Shown: positions 28,534 to 42,363 of the stretch, in pieces
Layout: the number at the start of each line of letters is the position of its first letter
Numbering within the stretch: position 1 is the stretch's first letter
Source: Okeania sp. SIO1I7
GTDB taxonomy: Bacteria; Cyanobacteriota; Cyanobacteriia; Cyanobacteriales; Microcoleaceae
Direction: 5' to 3'
DNA length: 64,000 bases
Assembly (NCBI GenBank): GCA_010672585.1
Contig: JAAHGF010000034.1
Location: 1 to 64,000 of the forward strand
Notes under the pieces: model-generated
Seen by the model: only the letters and a program-made list of their open reading frames with translations
Told to the model about the DNA's origin: nothing
The model's database searches: none
Program-made: the position numbers and the translations under genes

Positions 28534-28773
28534 ATGCCTAAAACAATATTTAATTTAGCAAGAATACAAGTCTCTGATTATCACCCAGTCCAACTACTCT
28601 TTGAACTACAGCAAAAGCTAGAAGGTTTTAACAGAGATGATTTTGCCGAGTTGATGGGAGTGCAACCCCAAACAGTTCGCCAATGGTGCAGCAAACGTGG
28701 TAATCCTAATCCTCAAGCTAGACAATTAGCTGGTGAAATTAAGGCCAGACTACAACGCGATCGCATCTTGTAG
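28534..28773 (+). CDS. Small helix-turn-helix protein
   Basis: A 79-residue protein with a helix-turn-helix of the XRE/Cro type: DDFAELMGVQPQTVRQWCSK (about 36-55) followed by a basic helix (PNPQARQLAGEIKARLQRD). The N-terminal part (VQLLFELQQKLEGF) may dimerise. It lies 91 bases upstream of the sugar-phosphate cyclase gene on the same strand, so it is a natural candidate regulator of that locus; this is inference from position. A GAAATTGAG-like element precedes the ATG but the ribosome site is weak. Confidence 0.7.
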   Translation: MPKTIFNLARIQVSDYHPVQLLFELQQKLEGFNRDDFAELMGVQPQTVRQWCSKRGNPNPQARQLAGEIKARLQRDRIL

Positions 28774-28864
28774 AAAATTGTAGATTGAATCTACTGACAA
28801 TGTATATCAATTAGTTCACTATATAAATTAAAGCAATTCACACTTTATCGACAAAGGAGAAATC

Positions 28865-30184
28865 ATGGTTGACTATAACATAACAGAAGAATGGACTCCA
28901 GGAAAAATGGTTGAACTCAGCACAGAGTTACTCAAACCCAGTCCATTTTATTTCGGATACGATATCAAGGAACATTTTCTCAAAGAATTGTCAAAACACG
29001 ATATAGACAAAATCTTTTTCTTTTGTGAGCAAAATATGTTTGGACTTTACGGAGAGGAACTGTTCCACGAACTGAATTCGGAATACAAATGTCTTCTAGA
29101 AATGGTTCCCCCTGGTGAGAAATCTAAATATTTCTCAGTTTTAGAACAAATATGTGAAACATTAGTCACTGAAGGTGTATCTAAAAAATCTCTATTAATT
29201 GCCTTTGGTGGAGGAACAGTAGGAAATATTGTCGGTTTGGTTGCTGGATTAATTTATCGTGGAATTAACTTTGTCGAAGTATCTACAACCATGACTGGAA
29301 TTACTGATAGTACCCTCAGTAACAAACAAGCGGTTAATGGTTTAAGTGGTAAAAATCACTTTGGTCTTTATCATAGTCCTCTGTTTATTTGGGCAGATAC
29401 AAAATACCTCAAAACAGAGCCTGCTTTTTCCAAGCGATGTGGCATTATTGAAGGGATTAAAAATGGTTTTATTGCTGAACCTACCTTTTTGGATTATTTA
29501 GAAAGAACTCTTAATCCTGAGCTTAATTTTTCTCAGCAGGAGTTAACTGACCTAGCTTATAAAATTATTCTTTCCAAACTAGAAATTCTCAAAAAAGACC
29601 CCACTGAAAAACATTATGGAATTATTTTAGAGTATGGTCATACTTTTGGTCATGGTTTGGAATGGCTGCTAAAAGGAAAACTATCTCATGGAGAAGCAGT
29701 TTCTTATGGTATGAAAATAGTAGCGGAACTAGGGCAAGAACTGGGCTTTATGTCACAAGAAGATGTAGATTTGCACCACCACTTTATTGATGATAAACTC
29801 GGATTTAATAATCCTTGGCCTGAGCACGTAACTACTGATTTATTAATGAAGGCGATGATTGCAGATAATAAGAAAACAGGGGACGACCTTCGGTTTGTTA
29901 TGTTAGAAAAAATAGGTCAATGTTATAATCCAGAAGGAGATTATTTGATGACGATTGACAATAAAACGGTAGAAAAAGTTCTGGATAATTATATTCAAAA
30001 AGCAACTGGAAAAGTTGCAGTTGAGACTGCAATTACAGAGCAATCTAACTATACAAGAAAAGTTGCAGTTGAGACTGCAATTATGGAGCAATCTAACTCT
30101 ACAAGAAAACTTGCAGTTGAGGCTGCAATTATGGAGCAATCTAACTCTACTTCTCCTAAACAGAAGTTAAAAGTTAAAAGTTAA
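28865..30184 (+). CDS. Sugar-phosphate cyclase, 2-deoxy-scyllo-inosose synthase-like
   Basis: A 439-residue member of the 3-dehydroquinate synthase superfamily. NAD-site AFGGGTVGNIVG (Gly115-117) and the metal ligands Glu196 (CGIIEGIKN), His259 (LEYGHTFGHGLE) and His275 (LSHGEAVS) are all present. The run LSNKQAVNGLSGKNHFGLYH (151-170) fits 2-deoxy-scyllo-inosose synthase better, as I remember it, than AroB or the EEVS/DDG group. Those enzymes turn glucose-6-phosphate into the carbocycle 2-deoxy-scyllo-inosose. Residues about 380-439 are an extra tail of three 19-residue repeats (KVAVETAIMEQSN-type) coded by 57-bp tandem DNA repeats. The ribosome site AAAGGAGAAATC before ATG 28865 is excellent. 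A dehydrogenase, an isomerase-type protein and transporters follow on the same strand. The subgroup call is tentative. Confidence 0.8.
   Translation: MVDYNITEEWTPGKMVELSTELLKPSPFYFGYDIKEHFLKELSKHDIDKIFFFCEQNMFGLYGEELFHELNSEYKCLLEMVPPGEKSKYFSVLEQICETLVTEGVSKKSLLIAFGGGTVGNIVGLVAGLIYRGINFVEVSTTMTGITDSTLSNKQAVNGLSGKNHFGLYHSPLFIWADTKYLKTEPAFSKRCGIIEGIKNGFIAEPTFLDYLERTLNPELNFSQQELTDLAYKIILSKLEILKKDPTEKHYGIILEYGHTFGHGLEWLLKGKLSHGEAVSYGMKIVAELGQELGFMSQEDVDLHHHFIDDKLGFNNPWPEHVTTDLLMKAMIADNKKTGDDLRFVMLEKIGQCYNPEGDYLMTIDNKTVEKVLDNYIQKATGKVAVETAITEQSNYTRKVAVETAIMEQSNSTRKLAVEAAIMEQSNSTSPKQKLKVKS
30006..30160. repeat. 57-bp tandem repeats inside the cyclase gene
   Basis: Three units of 57 bp, each containing the hairpin TTGCAGT-TGAG-ACTGCAA or a one-base variant of it. 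They keep the reading frame open and end in an AAAGTTA/AAAAGTC heptamer run at the stop codon. Confidence 0.85.
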
Positions 30185-30593
30185 AAGTCAAAAGTAAGAC
30201 TTTGTAAACTCAAAACTTTGACACTACTGGCTGGATTGACACATCTAAAATAGTGCGTTACGACTGCCAAGATTCAATTCTAAAATGGTGCGTTACGACA
30301 GACTTTTAAATCTCTGTCAAACCTTAGATGTTAGCTGTCTAACGCACCCTACTGGTAAATGGTGCATTAGGGTAAGAACGTTGCATGCAGCGTCCCTACG
30401 GGAGATGGAGAGATGGGGAGTAAAATTGTTGTTGGGTTACCCTGACGGGAAGCAAGCTACTTTATAGCTCTTAATCCGTATATCCGTGGCATAATCCGTG
30501 TGAGCACCTCAACCCAACCTACAGTTATTGCAACATTTTAGCTGTGTCACGCCACTACATTAATGCACTGATAACTGTAAAAAAGGTCGAGCA
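30185..30593. other. Spacer with degenerate repeats
   Basis: It holds AAAAGTC heptamers, two GTGCGTTACGAC segments, a decayed copy of the GTAGGGACGTT palindrome (about 30373-30400) and fragments of the GTTGGGTT family (30430-30520). A short open frame through it is made of these repeats and is not a believable gene. Confidence 0.55.
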
Positions 30594-31793
30594 ATGGAAA
30601 ACACTAAATTTCTCAGTCACAGTACAAAAATTTACTTAGACAGAAACCTGCAAATAATTATTGGCATAACATTGATAGCAGTCTTAGGTTCAGCAGGTAG
30701 TATCGGACCAGTATTGCCAACAATGGCATCAGCACTGCAAATTCCTCCAGAAAAAATAGGATTAGTGATTACAGTATTTGTTGTACCCATCGCCATTGGA
30801 ACTCCCATCTTAGGAGTATTAGCAGATCGCTTTGGGAGAAAACAAATACTCATTCCCTCATTGTTATTGTTTGCTGTCGCCGGAGTTGCTTGCAGCTTTG
30901 CTCCCAATTTTCGTACATTGTTAGAATTGCGGTTTCTCCAGGGTGTAGGAGCTGCTAGTTTAGAATTCCTCGCACTTACATTAATCACCGATTTGTATGC
31001 AGGCAAAAGTTTAACATCAGCAATGGCATTCAATGCTAGTATGATTGGCATAAGTTTGACAGTGTATCCTCTAATTACTGGAGGGTTGGCAACATGGGGA
31101 TGGCGCTATCCTTTTTTACTGCCACTACTCGCAGTTCCAGTTGTACTTGCTGTTATTTTTTTCCTAGAATTACCCTCCTTTAAAAAGCCACCAAAATTCC
31201 GTTTGAGAGTATATTTAAGAAATATTTGGCATAGTGTTAATAATAGTCAGGTATTAGGATTGTTATTTGCAGTAGTTGCTTTATTTATATTGCTATTCGG
31301 TCCTTATTTTACTTATATTCCGATGTTAGCTGGAGATGTTTTTGATGCTTCTAATGTAACAATTGGAATGATTTTAGCAACTATGGCTTTATCTTTAGCA
31401 TTTGTGTCTTCTCAGGTAGCATTATTTCCCCAATCTCTATCAGAATTTACTCTAATTAAAGTTTCATTTGTACTTTATACTTTGGCAGTAATAGTTACTC
31501 CATTCCTACAAAATATGTGGTTATTATTAATTCCTAGTATTTTGTTTGGAGCTGCTCATGGAATGTGTTTTCCTGCTACTCAGGCATTATTAGGAAAATT
31601 CGCACCTCAAGATTATCGCGCTGGTTTTATGGCTGTTAATGCGATGGTTTTATCTACAGGACAAGCATTAGGTCCGTTGTTAGCTGGAGTTGCTTTTGGA
31701 GTTTGGGGAATAGCTGGAGTTTTTTACGCTGCTGCTGTTTTTTCTGTTTTGAGTTTGGGGTTAATTAGTAAACTTTTTGTGACTATTGATTAG
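30594..31793 (+). CDS. MFS transporter (drug/metabolite efflux type)
   Basis: A 399-residue protein with about 12 transmembrane segments. The loop between segments 2 and 3 carries the MFS motif GVLADRFGRKQIL (about 81-93). The N-terminal half (ALQIPPEKIGLVITVFVVPIAIGTPILG) is typical of DHA1-type efflux carriers; a second-half loop contains PQDYRAGFMAVNAMVLSTGQALGP. It likely exports a small molecule by proton antiport. It follows the cyclase gene on the same strand after a repeat-filled 409-base gap, so a shared transcript is uncertain. A plausible job is export of the locus product. Confidence 0.88.
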   Translation: MENTKFLSHSTKIYLDRNLQIIIGITLIAVLGSAGSIGPVLPTMASALQIPPEKIGLVITVFVVPIAIGTPILGVLADRFGRKQILIPSLLLFAVAGVACSFAPNFRTLLELRFLQGVGAASLEFLALTLITDLYAGKSLTSAMAFNASMIGISLTVYPLITGGLATWGWRYPFLLPLLAVPVVLAVIFFLELPSFKKPPKFRLRVYLRNIWHSVNNSQVLGLLFAVVALFILLFGPYFTYIPMLAGDVFDASNVTIGMILATMALSLAFVSSQVALFPQSLSEFTLIKVSFVLYTLAVIVTPFLQNMWLLLIPSILFGAAHGMCFPATQALLGKFAPQDYRAGFMAVNAMVLSTGQALGPLLAGVAFGVWGIAGVFYAAAVFSVLSLGLISKLFVTID

Positions 31794-31934
31794 CCTAATA
31801 TTTAAGAAGGAAGAAGGAAGAAGGAAGAAGGAAGAAGGCTTTAATTATCGCCGAGAAAAGGAAAAATTGAATGGGGATACTTTTATATAATATATGTTGA
31901 TAATTCTATAATTACTTCAATCTCCCCTACTCCC

Positions 31935-31962
31935 GTAGGGACGTTGCATGCAACGTCCCTAC
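31935..31962. repeat. Perfect 28-bp palindrome (GTAGGGACGTT type)
   Basis: The arms GTAGGGACGTTGCA and TGCAACGTCCCTAC are exact complements. Related copies are at 34456-34483 (perfect, with CCATGG at the centre) and 38503-38530 (12-bp arms, loop CATC). The centre changes in both arms together, which indicates selection for, or creation of, the hairpin. Confidence 0.85.
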
Positions 31963-32005
31963 CCTACTCCCCTACTCTCCTATACGGTGGAATTTTCAAC
32001 CCTTT

Positions 32006-32890
32006 ATGGGAAAAGAGAATTTGAGTTTTTTTTGTAATATATTTACTAATAAAATGAGTATAAGCATACAAAGAAAAATAGGCGTTACTACCTGGATATT
32101 TGGTCAGAATAAATTAGAAAAAACTGCCAAAATTATTTCAGATATGGGTTTCGATGGAGTTGAATTATATGTAGATATAAATCAAACTAAACCTCAAAAT
32201 GTGAAAGATATTTTAGCGGAGAATGGGTTAGAAATATTCTCCATGACTCCTAGTAATGTAGATTTAGGAAGTAGCGATCGCCAAATAAGAATGGCAGCTC
32301 TAGATTACTATAAAAAGTTAATTGATTATGGAGCGGAATTAGGCAATCCCGTCATTACTTGCCATGAATATATTCAGAGTCAGATGGGAACTACTTATGC
32401 AGGTTCGAGAGATAATTTAATTGCTTCTTGTCAAGAATTAGCAGTTTATGCAGAAAAAGCAAAAATAAAATTAGGATTTGAACCTCTAAATCGTTATTTA
32501 TGTCGTTTCATTCTGAATAGCAATGATGTTTTATCTTTACTGGCAGAAATTAACTCGCCAAATATGACTGTTATTCTAGATACCTATCATGGCAATTTAG
32601 AAGAAGCAAATTTAGTTCAAGCTATTAAAGAATGTGGGGATAAACTGAGCGTATATCAAATCGCTGATTCTAATAGAAAAGGCATTGGTTTTGGTCATAC
32701 TAATTTTGCCGAACATTTCGAGGCACTTGATGAGATAAAATTCTCCGGTCCGATAATTATTGAATGTGCTCAACCTCGACAAACACCAGGTTCAAAAGAA
32801 GAGATAGATTTGGATGAACTAAAATTTCATTTGTCTGTCAGTAAAAATTGGATTGTGAATCAAACAAAAGTATTAGTTGCTAATAGTTGA
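32006..32890 (+). CDS. Sugar phosphate isomerase/epimerase family TIM barrel (IolE/IolI-like)
   Basis: A 294-residue AP-endonuclease-2-type TIM barrel. The metal ligands of the xylose isomerase-like family are visible: Glu in LGFEPLNRY, Asp in VILDTYHGNLEE, His in GFGHTNF and Glu in IIIECAQP. Relatives act on keto-sugars and inososes (IolE dehydratase, IolI isomerase, tagatose epimerase). Next to a deoxyinosose-synthase-like gene, an inosose-type substrate is a reasonable inference. The first ATG is at 32006; a second at 32054 (MSISIQRKIGVTTW) fits the usual N-terminus better, and neither has a strong ribosome site. Same strand as its neighbours. Confidence 0.85.
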   Translation: MGKENLSFFCNIFTNKMSISIQRKIGVTTWIFGQNKLEKTAKIISDMGFDGVELYVDINQTKPQNVKDILAENGLEIFSMTPSNVDLGSSDRQIRMAALDYYKKLIDYGAELGNPVITCHEYIQSQMGTTYAGSRDNLIASCQELAVYAEKAKIKLGFEPLNRYLCRFILNSNDVLSLLAEINSPNMTVILDTYHGNLEEANLVQAIKECGDKLSVYQIADSNRKGIGFGHTNFAEHFEALDEIKFSGPIIIECAQPRQTPGSKEEIDLDELKFHLSVSKNWIVNQTKVLVANS

Positions 32891-33462
32891 TTTATTGTTT
32901 GAGTTGCAATAGATGTAGGTTGAGTTGAGCTGCTCACACGGATTATGCCACGGATATACGGATTAAATTGATAATGGATAATTGATAATTACCTCTGGTG
33001 AAAACCGTTACGGAATTGAATATAAGGAAATATTATTTCGTAAGCATTCAGCCGTCAGCTTGTTGTTGGGTTTCCTACGTCAACCCAACCTACACTTATT
33101 GCTTATACCATTTCTCCATGAAGTTGCGCTTAATAAAAGATAACAGCTATTATTCATTAATTGATAATGGATAATGGATAATTGATAATTACCTCGGGTT
33201 TTAACCGCTACGGAATTGAATATAAGGAATATTTTCTTTTCTTGGTCGATTGGATATGGCGAGGAAACCTCGCCATCCCACCCTGCGGGAAGCTACGCTA
33301 ACGACCGCTTTTTTCCCCTTAAAAGGGTCGGCTTCAAGGCGCGAATTATTTAGTTATTAATTATTCGGTAAAATTCAGGTTTTGGTAAGAATTATTAAGC
33401 GCATTGTTACAGAGAAATGGTATTACTTTGAACACTGAAAATTAAAATTAGGAGAAAACAAA
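32891..33462. other. Spacer with two family B copies and a GTTGGGTT fragment
   Basis: A partial family B end (ATTGATAATGGATAATTG, about 32970-33035) is followed by a GTTGGGTT-family piece (about 33055-33100) and a full family B copy, B5 (33150-33370), inverted relative to B2 at 4108. Two hairpins recur: GGCGAGGAAACCTCGCC (about 33259-33275) and CCCTTTTAAGGGG-type. The last 40 bases carry the ribosome site AGGAGAAAAC of the next gene. Confidence 0.65.
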
Positions 33463-34230
33463 ATGAATCCGATCTATCAAGACCTAAAAGAAAAACATAT
33501 TTTAATCACTGGTGGCAGTAATGGAATTGGCGAAGCTTTAACTAAAACATTTGCCGAACAAGCAGCAGAAGTTACCATTTTAGATAAAGATTATGAAAGA
33601 GGTTTAAAAGTAGCTGAAGAATGCCAACAATATCATTGTAAAGTCAACGTCTATGGAATAGATTTAACTGATAGTGAAGCTTTAACAGAAACTTTAGCTA
33701 AAGTTAAAAAAGACAAACCAGTAGTAAATGTTTTAATTAACAATGCTGGTTATGACCCCCGATGTAATTTGCTAGAAATGTCAGCACAACAATGGAACGA
33801 TTTATTTCAATTAAATGTTGTACATTATTTCATCACCTGTCGGGAATTATTACCAGAAATGATTAATGCTGGTGGCGGTAGTATTATTATGACAAGTTCT
33901 CACCTAGTTTGGATTGCCAAACCAGATATGGTTGCTTACAATGCTACAAAAGCAGCAATAGTAGGTATGGTTCGGACTTTAGCAGAAGCAGTAGGCAAAC
34001 ATCATATTCGGGTAAATTCTGTAGCACCAGGTTGGATAATGACAGAAAGGCAACTTCAACAGTGGGTGACACCAGAAGCAAAACATAAAACTGTACATGA
34101 ATTACAATCAATTCCTATAGAATTAACACCTCAAGAGTTAGTCGGAACATATTTATTTCTTGCTTCCGATACATCCAGAGCAATAACTCGTCAGACCATA
34201 GTTGTAGATGCTGGATATGCACAGACTTAA
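33463..34230 (+). CDS. Short-chain dehydrogenase/reductase
   Basis: A 255-residue NAD(P)-dependent oxidoreductase of the classical SDR family. TGGSNGIGE (cofactor-binding glycine motif), LINNAGYD, and the catalytic set Ser in MTSSHLVW, Tyr159 and Lys163 in YNATKAA are all in place, with the C-terminal DAGYAQT end. An acidic residue after strand 2 (ILDKDYER) favours NAD over NADP. The ribosome site AGGAGAAAAC lies eight bases before the ATG. In this locus it could reduce or oxidise a hydroxyl of a cyclitol, but the substrate is not visible from sequence. Confidence 0.9.
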   Translation: MNPIYQDLKEKHILITGGSNGIGEALTKTFAEQAAEVTILDKDYERGLKVAEECQQYHCKVNVYGIDLTDSEALTETLAKVKKDKPVVNVLINNAGYDPRCNLLEMSAQQWNDLFQLNVVHYFITCRELLPEMINAGGGSIIMTSSHLVWIAKPDMVAYNATKAAIVGMVRTLAEAVGKHHIRVNSVAPGWIMTERQLQQWVTPEAKHKTVHELQSIPIELTPQELVGTYLFLASDTSRAITRQTIVVDAGYAQT

Positions 34231-34261
34231 TACACAAGTCAAAAGTCAAAAGTCATGCATC

Positions 34262-34348
34262 GAGTGCGTAATTCTGAGGTTTCCTACGGGGCGTATAAAG
34301 TGCGGAAGTAATTCCGCACACAGCCCCTCCAGAATGTAAGACGCACTC
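34262..34348. repeat. Nested hairpin element K
   Basis: Outer arms GAGTGCGT...ATTCTG (34262) and CAGAAT...ACGCACTC (34348) enclose a second perfect 8-bp hairpin GTGCGGAAGTAATTCCGCAC (34300-34319). A shorter relative, GAGTGTGTAATTCTGAGG with its complement, is at 54573-54614. It follows the SDR stop by 32 bases and might end that transcript. Confidence 0.7.
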
Positions 34349-34399
34349 AAGACAGTTAAAAGTAAGAATCTGACCAGGTTCAGTTATTCTTCTGTTTTA

Positions 34400-35007
34400 G
34401 CTTTGTTGCATGAAAGTAGCGTTCTTACAGCGGTTTTCCTACACGGTAGACCACAGTAGGGACGTTCCATGGAACGTCCCTACAAACTTTTGCTTGTGAA
34501 GATGTGGTTCATCAATGAGCAAAAGCGCTGTAACATCCATTCCGCAGCTATATCGCTCTGTTTGGCGATTATTGATGCTGTATTTATCTATTGTCCAATA
34601 GTTATTTCTGTGCACTGCAAAGTGATCGCTATCTTTAGCGATTATTGATGGGGTGATTTATCTATTGTCCAATAGTTATTTCTGTGCACTGCAAAGCGAT
34701 CGCTATCTTTAGCGATTATTGATGGGGTGATTTATCTATTGTCCAATAGTTATTTCTGTGCACTGCAAAGCGATCGCTATCTTTGGCGATTATTGATGTT
34801 GTATTTATCTATTGTCCAATAGTTATTTCTGTGCACTGCCAAGCGATCGCTATCTTTGGCGATTATTGATGTTGTATTTATCTATTGTCCAATAGTTATT
34901 TCTCTACCTATTAAACCTCAAATTTTTTACAAATAAAGCTTTCAGCCTTTTTATGTCAAACATTGATGTTCTATTGATCTATTGTCCAATAGTTACAGCA
35001 GTTTCCG
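34400..35007. mobile_element. Tandem-array element 1 (73/74-bp units with hairpins), right end lost
   Basis: The left end GCTTTGTTGCATGAAA matches that of the complete element at 41516-42363. Five tandem units of 73-74 bp follow, with CTATTG-TC-CAATAG at 34588, 34662, 34736, 34809 and 34882, most with a GCGATCGC site (one GTGATCGC variant). A distinct terminal block (AACCTCAAATTTTTTAC, then TGTCAAACATTGATGTTC) ends with a sixth CTATTGTCCAATAG at 34979. The right inverted end seen in the complete copy is missing. An unrelated element is inserted at 34426-34532. Confidence 0.8.
34426..34532. mobile_element. Element D2 nested in the array element, with 28-bp palindrome
   Basis: Ends TACAGCGGTTTT (34426) and AAAAGCGCTGTA (34532). 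Removing it restores the continuity seen in the other array element (ATTCTTA then TCCATTCCGCAGC). Inside lies the perfect palindrome at 34456-34483 (arms GTAGGGACGTTCCA). Family D relatives: 27803-27936 and 38138-38262. Confidence 0.75.
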
Positions 35008-35210
35008 CTTTCTCCTGTCTCCTGTCTCCTACTCCTACTAAAAGATCGGTAAATATATCTATAGCGCTACCCATTAAGGTTAGGACATGAATAGAAGCTG
35101 TTTGCGCAGCATTCCGTAGGAAAACCCTTTTTGATTCCCCTACTGACTGTTGCCTTGCGCGTAGCGCTTTAGCGCAACTACAAACAAAGACTATCTCTCA
35201 AAAATTAACT

Positions 35211-36395
35211 ATGGGTATTAACAAAACTTTATTAATCATGGCAATGGTTGGTGGAGCTGCAGTTGCCAACTTATATTACAATCAACCCTTATTAGCAATA
35301 ATTGCCGAAAGCTTCCATGCTCCCACTCAGCAAGTTGGGTTAATTCCCATGATGACACAAATTGGTTATGCCTTGGGGTTACTGCTATTTGTGCCCTTGG
35401 GCGATATCATAGAACGACGACGCTTAATTGCGACAATGCTGATGGCAACCGCTCTAGCTTTACTAATAGCAGCTATATCTCCTAATATTAGTTGGTTAAT
35501 TGTTGCGAGTTTACTTATTGGTATGACTACAATAATTCCCCAACTCGTTGTACCTTTTGCTGCTTTTTTAGTAGAACCGGGAAAACGTGGCAAAGCTGTC
35601 GGAACTGTGATGAGTGGTTTATTCATTGGCATTGTTTTAGCTAGAATGACTAGCGGATTCATCGGAGCAAATTTCGGTTGGCGAGCAATATATTTTTTTG
35701 CTAGTGGGTTGATGATGTTAATAGCAGTAGTATCAACATTTGTACTGCCAAAAGCACAACCCTCTGTCACCCTCTCATACCCCAAATTAATTCTTTCTTT
35801 GGGACAAGTAATTCGAGAACAGTTATTATTGCGGCAAGTAGCTTTAATTGGGGCAATGTCTTTTGCTGCTTATAGTATTTTCTGGAGTACAATGGCATTT
35901 TTCCTGAAAGCGCCACCCCTAAACTACAGTAGTCAAGTAGCAGGAATGTTTGGTTTGGTTGGTATTGTGGGAGCTATAGCAGCGATAATTGCTGGTCGAA
36001 TGGCAGATCGAAAAAATCCTAGATTGATTTCTATGTTAGGTGTTGTGATTTCTAGTTCATCATTTTTAGTATTTTCTTTAGCAAGATATGAATTATGGGG
36101 TCTAATTTTGGGAGTGATGCTGTTAGATTTGGGGGTGCAGACAACTCACATTTCTAACCAAGCACAAATTTATAGTTTGCCTGCCGAAATACATAGTCGT
36201 CTGAATACAGTTTACATGGTTACCTATTTTGTGGGAGGAGCTATGGGTTCTTACTGTGGTAACTATGCTTGGAGTAATTGGCAATGTAATGGAGTTTGTA
36301 GCGTTGCTTTATTTGTTCTAGTTTCAGCTTTGAGTATTTTATACTTCACAATTTTCTGGAAAAAACCAAAGCAACAACTTTTGAGTGCTAGATAA
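35211..36395 (+). CDS. MFS transporter (second efflux-type carrier)
   Basis: A 394-residue protein with 12 hydrophobic segments. The N-terminus (VGGAAVANLYYNQPLLAIIAESFHAP) and the motif VPLGDIIERRRLIA (segment 2-3 loop) are typical of the YnfM/arabinose-efflux-like MFS group. A second-half loop has GRMADRKNPRL. It is probably a proton-driven exporter. It lies in the same orientation as the SDR and cyclase genes but after a 980-base repeat block, so it may have its own promoter. No ribosome site is obvious before ATG 35211. Confidence 0.88.
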   Translation: MGINKTLLIMAMVGGAAVANLYYNQPLLAIIAESFHAPTQQVGLIPMMTQIGYALGLLLFVPLGDIIERRRLIATMLMATALALLIAAISPNISWLIVASLLIGMTTIIPQLVVPFAAFLVEPGKRGKAVGTVMSGLFIGIVLARMTSGFIGANFGWRAIYFFASGLMMLIAVVSTFVLPKAQPSVTLSYPKLILSLGQVIREQLLLRQVALIGAMSFAAYSIFWSTMAFFLKAPPLNYSSQVAGMFGLVGIVGAIAAIIAGRMADRKNPRLISMLGVVISSSSFLVFSLARYELWGLILGVMLLDLGVQTTHISNQAQIYSLPAEIHSRLNTVYMVTYFVGGAMGSYCGNYAWSNWQCNGVCSVALFVLVSALSILYFTIFWKKPKQQLLSAR

Positions 36396-36847
36396 TTTTG
36401 TGTAACCCCTATAGTTTCAGTAGGGTGCGTTAGACGACTACAATTATTCGTTGTCATAGTGATTTAAAAATCCGTCGTCACGCACCATCAGGACTTAAGC
36501 ACAGACACTAAATAGAGTGAGAGCGTTAGCGGAGCTTTGTATTAGCAAATGCCATTCGCCCCTACATACGGCGTTTTCAAGGTTAATTTGCGTAGTTGTG
36601 CTAAAGCGCTCCAAATATCTCTAGCAGTGTTAAAGCGCAACTACAAACTCAGACTTTTTTATAATTATTGCAACCAACCCTACCGAATAATTAAGGTAAA
36701 AATCCTCTCACTCGCCGTGGAGAAACAATGAATTAATATTCCTTTTATTCAATCCTCATCCTTTTAGGGAGAGGTAATTATCAATTATCCATTATCCATT
36801 ATTGAAACCTACACTTTTATACAACAAAATAAACAGGAATTTTAACT
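36396..36847. other. Spacer with family B copy B6 and a relative of the 1837 repeat
   Basis: GTGCGTTAG/AACGCACC pieces (36425-36487) are followed by a relative of the 1837-2107 repeat (GCCATTCGCCCCTACA, about 36551) and family B copy B6 (36681-36806, from TACCGAATAATTAAGG to ATTATCC heptamers). No gene seen. Confidence 0.6.
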
Positions 36848-37840
36848 ATGCGTCCTATACGTGCCATTCGCTTTGACAATTTCGGATCTCCGACGACTCA
36901 ACTCAAACTTGAAGAACTTCCCACTCCCGTTTTACAACCTGGTGAAGTGCTAGTTGAAGTTCATGCAGCGTCTATTAATCCCAGTGATGTAAAAAATATT
37001 TTGGGAGTTATGGAAAGTACTACTCTTCCCCGCACACCTGGTCGAGATTTTGCTGGAGTTGTCGTTGCAGGTGCGCCAAATCTAATTGGTACAGAAGTTT
37101 GGGGAACAGGAGGCGATATTGGATTTATCCGTGATGGTTCCCACGCTTCTCATTTGGTATTACCTGTAGGAGCAATACAACCCAAACCACAAAATATATC
37201 CATGATACAAGCAGCAACTATCGGAGTCAGATATATTACCGCTTGGTTATCTTTGATTGAAGCCGCAAATTTACAATCAGGAGAAACTGTTTTAGTAGTG
37301 GGAGCAACAGGTGGGGTTGGCAAAGCAGCAATTCAAATAGCAAAATGGAAAGGAGCTAAAGTTTTAGGAACAGTGCGACGGGAATCAGATTATTCAATAG
37401 TTGAAACATCTGGTGTTGATATCGTTATTAATTTGGCAACGGAAAATCTTAATTCTGCTGTTTTAGCTGCTACTGGAGGTAAAGGTGTGGATGTGGTATT
37501 GGATACAGTCGGGGGTTCTATGTTGGAAAATAGTATGTGGACCCTCAGTCCTAGAGGTCGTTTGGTCGCTATTAGCGCTCCACCAAAAGAAGCGAAAGTT
37601 TGTTTTGACCTCCGGGATTTTTATCACCGGGAGTTGCGCTTGTTTGGGGTTGATAGTCGAGCTTTTGACGTAACTCAATGTGGGCAAATTTTGGCAGCAC
37701 TAACTCCCTTGTTTGAAACAAATGCTATTTTACCACCAGAAGCGATCGCTACTTACCCACTTAGGGGGGGAATAATTGCCTACGAACAAGTACACAATAG
37801 AACTAATGTTTCTCAGCTAGTTTTAACTGCTAATATGTAG
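36848..37840 (+). CDS. Quinone oxidoreductase-like MDR family protein
   Basis: A 330-residue NADPH-dependent medium-chain dehydrogenase/reductase of the zinc-free quinone oxidoreductase (QOR) type. An N-terminal GroES-like domain (about 10-120, LPTPVLQPGEVLVEVHAASINPSDVK) precedes the Rossmann domain with VLVVGATGGVGKAAIQIA (about 150-167) and VDVVLDTVGGSML. The cysteine ligands of zinc alcohol dehydrogenases are absent. It may reduce quinones, enones or other conjugated carbonyls. It ends the run of co-directional genes that starts with the HTH protein, but a link to that locus is by position only. The ribosome site is weak (ACAGGAATTTTAACT). Confidence 0.9.
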   Translation: MRPIRAIRFDNFGSPTTQLKLEELPTPVLQPGEVLVEVHAASINPSDVKNILGVMESTTLPRTPGRDFAGVVVAGAPNLIGTEVWGTGGDIGFIRDGSHASHLVLPVGAIQPKPQNISMIQAATIGVRYITAWLSLIEAANLQSGETVLVVGATGGVGKAAIQIAKWKGAKVLGTVRRESDYSIVETSGVDIVINLATENLNSAVLAATGGKGVDVVLDTVGGSMLENSMWTLSPRGRLVAISAPPKEAKVCFDLRDFYHRELRLFGVDSRAFDVTQCGQILAALTPLFETNAILPPEAIATYPLRGGIIAYEQVHNRTNVSQLVLTANM

Positions 37841-41515: not shown

Positions 41516-42363
41516 GTCTTTGTTGCATGAAAGTAGGATTCTTAAGATCCATTCCGCAGCTATATCCCTATCTTTGGCAATGGCTTGATGTTGATTTATC
41601 TATTGTCCAATAGTTATGACTCTACTGAGAAAGCGATCACTATCTTTGACGATGGCTTGATGTTGATTTATCTATTGTCCAATAGTTATGACTCTGCACT
41701 GCCAAGCGATCGCTATCTTTGGCAATGGCTTGATTTTCATTATCTATTGTCCAATAGTTATTGCTCTACTGAGAAAGCGATCGCTATCTTTGACGATGGC
41801 TTGATGTTGATTTATCTATTGTCCAATAGTTATTGCTCTACTGAGAAAGCGATCGCTATCTTTGACGATGGCTTGATGTTGATTTATCTATTGTCCAATA
41901 GTTATTGCTCTACTGAGAAAGCGATCGCTATCTTTGACGATGGCTTGATGTTGATTTATCTATTGTCCAATAGTTATTGCTCTACTGAGAAAGCGATCGC
42001 TATCTTTGACGATGGCTTGATGTTGATTTATCTATTGTCCAATAGTTATTGCTCTACTGAGAAAGCGATCGCTATCTTTGACGATGGCTTGATGTTGATT
42101 TATCTATTGTCCAATAGTTATTGCTCTACTGAGAAAGCGATCGCTATCTTTGACGATGGCTTGATGTTGATTTATCTATTGTCCAATAGTTATTGCTCTG
42201 CTTATTCAACCTCAAAGCTCTTACAGGTAAAAGTTTCAGTCTTTTTCTGTCAAACATTGATGTTCTATTGATCTATTGTCCAATAGTTACAGTAGTTTCC
42301 GCGCGTTATGAAGTACATATGCGGATCAAGTGCGGCAGCTATATATTTTCATGCAACAAAGCC
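41516..42363. mobile_element. Tandem-array element 2 (nine 72-bp units), complete with inverted ends
   Basis: A 15-bp inverted repeat, CTTTGTTGCATGAAA (41518-41532) and its complement (42347-42361), bounds the element. ATTAATAAT stands directly outside both ends (41507-41515, 42364-42372), as a possible 9-bp target duplication. Nine units of exactly 72 bp follow, with CTATTG-TC-CAATAG at 41600, 41672 and every 72 bases to 42176. Most carry GCGATCGC. A closing block ends with a tenth hairpin at 42273. Because 72 is a multiple of three, a long repetitive frame stays open on the plus strand. The ends (GGCTTTGTTGC) resemble those of some IS5-family elements, but no transposase is present. Confidence 0.85.

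Follow-up and report, generated by a model that had tools for sequence, protein, structure and literature searches.

Chemistry of the 2-deoxy-scyllo-inosose synthase (DOIS) type is the entry to aminoglycosides. DOIS forms 2-deoxy-scyllo-inosose (DOI) from glucose 6-phosphate, according to PMC6170601. Among described systems, the closest parallel to a cyclase paired with such an isomerase-like barrel is the ebo cluster (PMC5133447, PMC6282210), in which the cyclase EboD occurs with the xylose-isomerase-like EboE in cyanobacteria, among others (PMC5133447). Here we analyzed a 64,000-nucleotide stretch of Okeania sp. SIO1I7 (the window; contig JAAHGF010000034.1, C38 of the 109 contigs of the 9.48-Mb genome G000), in which, as in the ebo cluster, a sugar phosphate cyclase is paired with a xylose-isomerase-like TIM barrel. 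The original prediction had described seven co-directional genes as a possible undescribed DOI-type cyclitol locus, and seven open reading frames (ORFs), all on the + strand, were indeed present at 28534–37840. A literature search of titles and abstract beginnings, including work on quercitol and DOI in cyanobacteria, returned no description of such a locus; "undescribed" holds within that scope, outside which most subscription papers lie and a prior description is possible.

Phylogenetic analysis of 66 sequences, with references for 3-dehydroquinate synthase (DHQS), aminodehydroquinate synthase (aDHQS), 2-epi-5-epi-valiolone synthase (EEVS), desmethyl-4-deoxygadusol synthase (DDGS), EboD and DOIS-type enzymes, revealed that the window cyclase belongs to a clade of 23 rows (support 100/100), whose sister is a group of eight DOIS-type rows (97/93; joint node 100/99). 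The clade falls outside this group and lies away from DHQS, aDHQS, EEVS, DDGS and EboD. The best PDB match of the window cyclase was BtrC, the DOIS of butirosin (28.5% identity). The tree was built without further AroB rows (L107, L108, L110, L111), rows for the same genes as L067–L069 (L120–L122) and the partial 3qbd, and without the clade members of G250, G308, G369, G162 and the type A copy of G358 (locus types are described below), which are broken, partial or closely similar to rows already present; the unusual AroB-like L119, which has a very long branch, was kept in the tree but excluded from the DHQS group of the residue and approximately unbiased (AU) analyses. The best NCBIfam match of the cyclase was TIGR01357 (aroB; 246 bits, below the cut-off of 305), as might be expected if an ordinary shikimate-pathway DHQS paralogue had been misannotated and its neighbors served unrelated functions. 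However, the genome has its own AroB (contig C20), the Arg and Asn of DHQS are replaced in the clade, cyclase and barrel partners strictly co-occur, and a tree constrained to join the clade with DHQS and aDHQS was rejected in an AU test set up after the tree had been seen (p-AU 0.0045). On tree, residues and AU test we rejected this explanation, which we regard as highly improbable.

Comparison of residues in BtrC numbering (key positions picked from 58 printed; 11 rows in the DHQS group; EboD row L115 not counted), with catalytic roles as in structural work on DHQS and DOIS, pointed to the same relationship. S139, Q142, N187, E243 and N321 were present in all 23 clade rows and all eight DOIS-type rows, whereas the DHQS rows have G, T, Y (A in one), N and K at these sites; the five residues differ in the other groups as well, except S139 in four rows labeled "DDGS?". 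Arg 239 and Asn 243, each found in 11/11 DHQS rows, are replaced in 23/23 clade rows by Gly (Ala in one) and by Glu, respectively, and K141, E183, K186, H246 and H262 are likewise kept throughout the clade. The KQAVNGLSGKNHFG run and the expected catalytic and metal residues were present in the window cyclase. The clade thus has in common with BtrC (PDB 2d2x) the fold family, the S.KQAVN...GKN run, N187, E243 within EYGHT and the lack of the DHQS arginine, but it forms a separate clade, is paired with PF01261 TIM barrels and gave no DegT match (see below). The predicted assignment to the DOIS type therefore stands as DOIS-like by tree and residues, with the qualification that the cyclase belongs to a deep sister clade outside the sampled DOIS group. 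Neither outcome named in advance as overturning that prediction was observed: the cyclase did not fall within DHQS or EEVS, and neighboring genes recur with it in relatives. Membership in EEVS or DDGS was ruled out by their distance in the tree and by the Pro they carry at the BtrC H250 site (His in 23/23 clade rows), and membership in EboD by its distant position beside EEVS/DDGS and the Asp at the E243 site (Glu in 23/23). Besides AroB, the same genome encodes one other member of the cyclase family, a DDGS-related protein on contig C1 (L070:9610-10953); it and its relatives have Arg at the BtrC K141 site (4/4 rows), where all other groups examined have Lys, and form a distinct DDGS-like group.

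A cyclase of this clade was found in 24 of 388 Cyanobacteriales genomes, the best matches being 63–100% identical to that of the window; the next best genomes reached at most 34%. Named carriers are Okeania, Hydrocoleum, Oscillatoria princeps, Mastigocoleus, Hyella and members of the Prochloraceae and Xenococcaceae. Among 388 genomes of a wider draw from the class, a cyclase match at E 1e-70 occurred in the window's own genome alone, and a search of 115 plasmid records found none with at least 60% identity. In two loci (L035 and L036, from Okeania sp. SIO2C9 and SIO2B3), the gene for the helix-turn-helix (HTH) protein and the cyclase gene are tandemly duplicated; the second HTH match is partial, and identity of the copies to those of the window is about 86% and 96%.

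Synteny was surveyed in 28 clade loci with flanks of differing length, at a threshold of 60% identity for orthologues of the short-chain dehydrogenase/reductase (SDR), and two architectures were revealed. In type A, to which the window belongs (16/28 loci), the cyclase is followed on the same strand by a major facilitator superfamily (MFS) transporter, MFS1, and a TIM barrel, TIM-A; the SDR was present in 15 of the 16, the exception (G266) being cut by a contig end. In type B (9/28), the cyclase occurs with TIM-B, an IolI-like barrel unrelated to TIM-A that stands in for TIM-A and SDR; MFS1 was found in two of these loci, and an orthologue of the type A SDR at the above threshold in none of the nine. 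Two of the three untyped loci (L051 and L057) extend for just 953 and 1601 bp downstream, and the third (L064, a cyclase fragment of Hyella) has no TIM barrel within the 3.2 kb to the contig end. The widely conserved unit is therefore four genes: cyclase, MFS1, TIM-A and SDR. Conservation of all seven genes as a single unit was ruled out, since the HTH gene (8/28) and the quinone-oxidoreductase-like gene (5/28) occurred exclusively within the window's own family, where the second transporter, MFS2, was also found in seven loci, in addition to L054 at 56%. The 12 MFS–TIM–SDR junctions of six distant type A loci measured −34 to 142 bp, apart from one of 188 bp. Retention of the gene set across relatives, in many cases with hardly any space between genes, shows that it goes beyond chance.

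The presence of the barrels across the 388 genomes closely followed that of the cyclase. TIM-A was found in 16 genomes, all among the 24 with the cyclase, and TIM-B in nine, eight of them among the 24; in the ninth (G328), TIM-B sits on a 5.2-kb contig that breaks off within the upstream MFS1, on the side expected to hold the cyclase. In one genome (G358), each type lies on a contig of its own, and one cyclase genome (G162) has neither barrel. Altogether, 23/24 cyclase genomes and 1/364 others contain either barrel (Fisher p 8e-35, uncorrected for kinship). When 20 of the 23 clade rows were typed (all except L035_07, L051 and L057), the cyclase tree required a minimum of four changes between A and B, and closely related cyclases of type A (L053, L055) and type B (L050, L052) formed one group with support of 100/100. 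From these changes and this tight group, it seems that one barrel has replaced the other several times while the adjacent cyclase stayed almost unchanged, and such an exchange of two unrelated barrels would be a natural experiment on the step common to both. A deltaproteobacterial metagenome-assembled genome (L046) also carries a clade cyclase (51%) with TIM-B directly after it, probably as a result of horizontal transfer, with contamination as a less likely source.

The nearest solved relatives of TIM-A, by sequence and by fold, were D-tagatose/allulose 3-epimerases, TM0416 (presumably IolO) and YcjR, a 3-keto-glucoside 4-epimerase at rank 9 of the fold search (model pLDDT, a per-residue confidence score, 78.9). 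Those of TIM-B were 3u0h and then IolI (1i60), with a high root-mean-square deviation of more than 6 Å for the best matches (pLDDT 80.4). NCBIfam scores of both barrels were far below the cut-offs. The metal positions of ketose 3-epimerases, Glu-Asp-His-Glu in 8xiv and 8xix, correspond to E159, D192, Q218 and E253 in TIM-A, with Gln for His in 10/10 rows; TIM-B keeps the two Glu and the Asp and has Glu at the His position in 8/8 rows. The retained residues fit proton-transfer chemistry on a keto-cyclitol, without identifying the reaction.

The predicted lack of an aminotransferase was borne out for the DegT family, of which the search found no member in any of the 28 clade loci, within flanks of differing length (in relatives, DegT was the one aminotransferase family covered). 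The DegT queries came from L068, and of two controls L067 matched and L069, the third DOIS-like locus from cyanobacteria, did not. Clusters of 2-deoxystreptamine-type aminocyclitols have a related entry cyclase, and DegT aminotransferases adjoin the DOIS-type cyclases of L067, L068, L072, L074 and L075, in contrast to the window clade. Two of these loci are themselves cyanobacterial: L068 (G185) contains a DOIS-like cyclase, two DegT genes and genes for radical SAM/SPASM, HAD phosphatase-like, nucleotidyltransferase and glycosyltransferase proteins, and L067 (G121) contains a DOIS-like cyclase, one DegT gene, a radical SAM gene and many ORFs in common with L068. Both look like a 2-deoxystreptamine-type aminocyclitol cluster in cyanobacteria.

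From the gene content, synteny, co-occurrence, clade placement and residues observed, we infer a chemistry in which the locus would serve as a small operon making a carbocycle free of nitrogen, proceeding through deoxy-inosose, barrel, SDR and export; we give this reading an even chance. Tree and residues suggest that the cyclase, with NAD+ and a divalent metal, would convert a hexose 6-phosphate, most likely glucose 6-phosphate, to a 2-deoxy-inosose (2-deoxy-scyllo-inosose or a stereoisomer) and phosphate. The metal-dependent barrel may then act on the keto-cyclitol, moving the carbonyl or epimerizing a neighboring carbon in the manner of IolI and ketose 3-epimerases, as suggested by its fold, the retained Glu-Asp-x-Glu set and its co-occurrence with the cyclase. 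In type A, including the window, an NAD-linked SDR would reduce the ketone to a deoxyinositol (quercitol-type), a step that type B, lacking this SDR, would not share. The MFS transporters would export the product, which in some lineages may be further modified by the sulfotransferase or methyltransferase encoded nearby. The non-aminated carbocycle of the original prediction remains the best reading, because the cyclase is DOIS-like by tree and residues and the 28 loci gave no DegT match, although the product itself is deduced. If true, this sister clade would represent a nitrogen-free branch of DOIS-type chemistry in cyanobacteria, probably with an exported product.

A number of observations weigh against this pathway. 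To our knowledge, no activity is known for any member of the clade. The genes of the window are widely spaced, with gaps of 91–980 bp between them. The absence of DegT is consistent within the clade yet not peculiar to it, because the DOIS-like L069 gave no match and L073 has none annotated. Mean identity of the clade was 30.5% to five DOIS-type rows and 27.7% to DHQS, a slight margin. References are few, and the region of the tree around DOIS is one in which long branches come together. Of the eight DOIS-type rows, three come from cyanobacteria, BtrC alone of the other five is named DOIS in the PDB, and of the remaining four two are annotated as DOIS and two were assigned from context. The position as sister to, rather than inside, the DOIS group could therefore change with more references. 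In the barrels, Gln (TIM-A) or Glu (TIM-B) replaces the metal-site His of the nearest solved relatives, which prevents a direct assignment of the reaction; QuiC, a family of dehydratases, matched TIM-A with 38 and 41.6 bits, after epimerase families, and was the sole NCBIfam match of the L046 TIM-B (20.6 bits). In the cyclase, the clade has 23 invariant columns that match none of the eight DOIS-type rows, among them E125 (where these eight carry His), N140, G184 and G188, and in 22/23 clade rows Lys takes the place of the R323 found in the five non-cyanobacterial DOIS-type rows, so that substrate, product or stereochemistry may be altered.

These fixed differences, together with the depth of the branch to the DOIS sister (1.17 changes per column), would also be expected if the clade had a new specificity, converting another hexose or sugar phosphate to a carbocycle other than deoxy-inosose with the same partners. 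Tree position alone can mislead, as in the EVS case (PMC5133447), and substrate and product of the cyclase are unproven because the clade is a deep sister, not a member, of the sampled DOIS group. Throughout the clade, however, the five residues by which DOIS-type and DHQS rows differ most clearly follow the DOIS pattern, as does the missing DHQS Arg, and we consider a new specificity unlikely, if still the most serious of the competitors.

Another route from deoxy-inosose would be aromatization, with the barrel acting as a dehydratase: removal of two waters from deoxy-inosose (C6H10O5) would give a polyhydroxybenzene, for example hydroxyquinol (C6H6O3), which could then undergo methylation, sulfation or redox cycling. 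Aromatic polyphenols would then arise from glucose 6-phosphate without shikimate or polyketide routes, by way of a benzenetriol-type ring, a scenario that we judge improbable. Conversion of DOI to catechol is chemically possible (PMC6170601), and the QuiC matches to the barrels, though weak, are in line with dehydration. Some neighboring genes would also suit such a route, namely those for cytochrome b561 (7/28 loci: 5/16 of type A and two untyped), the quinone-oxidoreductase-like enzyme and a SULT-like sulfotransferase (3/28), as well as a methyltransferase between cyclase and TIM-B in L062 and L065, that of L065 scoring 132 bits against the UbiG cut-off of 103. In L054, an intradiol dioxygenase gene lies 222 bp behind TIM-B. 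The five best PDB matches of its product were PnpC (a hydroxyquinol 1,2-dioxygenase), one intradiol dioxygenase without a more specific name and three enzymes named as hydroxyquinol-type, with catechol dioxygenases ranking lower; its best NCBIfam match was, on the other hand, chlorocatechol dioxygenase, below the cut-off. It is just as doubtful that the ring is methylated, sulfated, exported or, in this one species, cleaved by the hydroxyquinol-type dioxygenase. Across the 388 genomes, the dioxygenase was found in 1/24 with the cyclase and 10/364 others (p 0.51), and this lack of association weakens the aromatic reading. Furthermore, the barrels are nearest to epimerases and isomerases rather than dehydratases, aromatization would not need the type A SDR, and every hint of it is at the family level. 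The nitrogen-free deoxyinositol pathway is thus retained as the preferred reading.

As separate observations on these neighbors, the L054 region behind TIM-B (L054:4194-7179) combines the hydroxyquinol-dioxygenase-like gene with one for a Trp-halogenase-like flavoprotein. The SULT-like sulfotransferase lies beside the cassette in three Okeania genomes (L035:19535-20605, L066:3942-4988 and L104:3921-4949); in L104 it is followed by a second TIM-A copy, and in L034 the gene is cut. In a Streptomyces plasmid, a gene annotated as DOIS is followed by an MFS gene (L073:9950-12663), with no aminotransferase annotated in 21 kb.

The seven genes of the window are listed in Table 1. The Pfam search confirmed six of the seven predicted families; the HTH assignment was weak (HTH_28, 22.7 bits against a cut-off of 25). 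Of the genes predicted to form a seven-gene neighborhood, the core of four was thus kept in relatives, and the other three were mostly confined to the window's own family.

Table 1 Genes of the cyclase locus in the window
Gene product	Position	Strand	Basis
Small helix-turn-helix protein, possible regulator	28534..28773	+	79 aa; weak HTH matches below cut-off
DOIS-like sugar phosphate cyclase	28865..30184	+	439 aa; Pfam PF01761 and PF24621, tree, residues
MFS transporter 1 (MFS1), core member, likely exporter	30594..31793	+	Pfam MFS_1
TIM barrel type A (TIM-A), core member, ketose-3-epimerase/IolO-like	32006..32890	+	Pfam PF01261
SDR oxidoreductase, core member	33463..34230	+	Pfam adh_short
MFS transporter 2 (MFS2), accessory	35211..36395	+	Pfam MFS_1
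Quinone oxidoreductase-like (PIG3-like) medium-chain dehydrogenase/reductase (MDR) enzyme, accessory	36848..37840	+	Pfam ADH_zinc_N

The top NCBIfam matches of MFS1 were the bacillibactin exporter BcbE and Bcr/CflA, below the cut-off, and MFS2 was weakly sugar-transporter-like (PRK03545). The SDR has the motifs NNAG at 93, S145-S146 and Y159xxxK, and the Asp in its segment ILDKD suggests NAD(H). The cyclase gene contains a 48-bp unit in three copies (30009–30150), which lengthens the protein to its 439 residues, and the last ~45 residues include the repeat-derived tail; of the five close relatives, four (G314, G297, G250 and G308) have a match that stops at residue 391–397. Two intergenic tandem arrays with a similar unit of 72–74 bp are located at 34552–34903 and 41564–42199 of the window.

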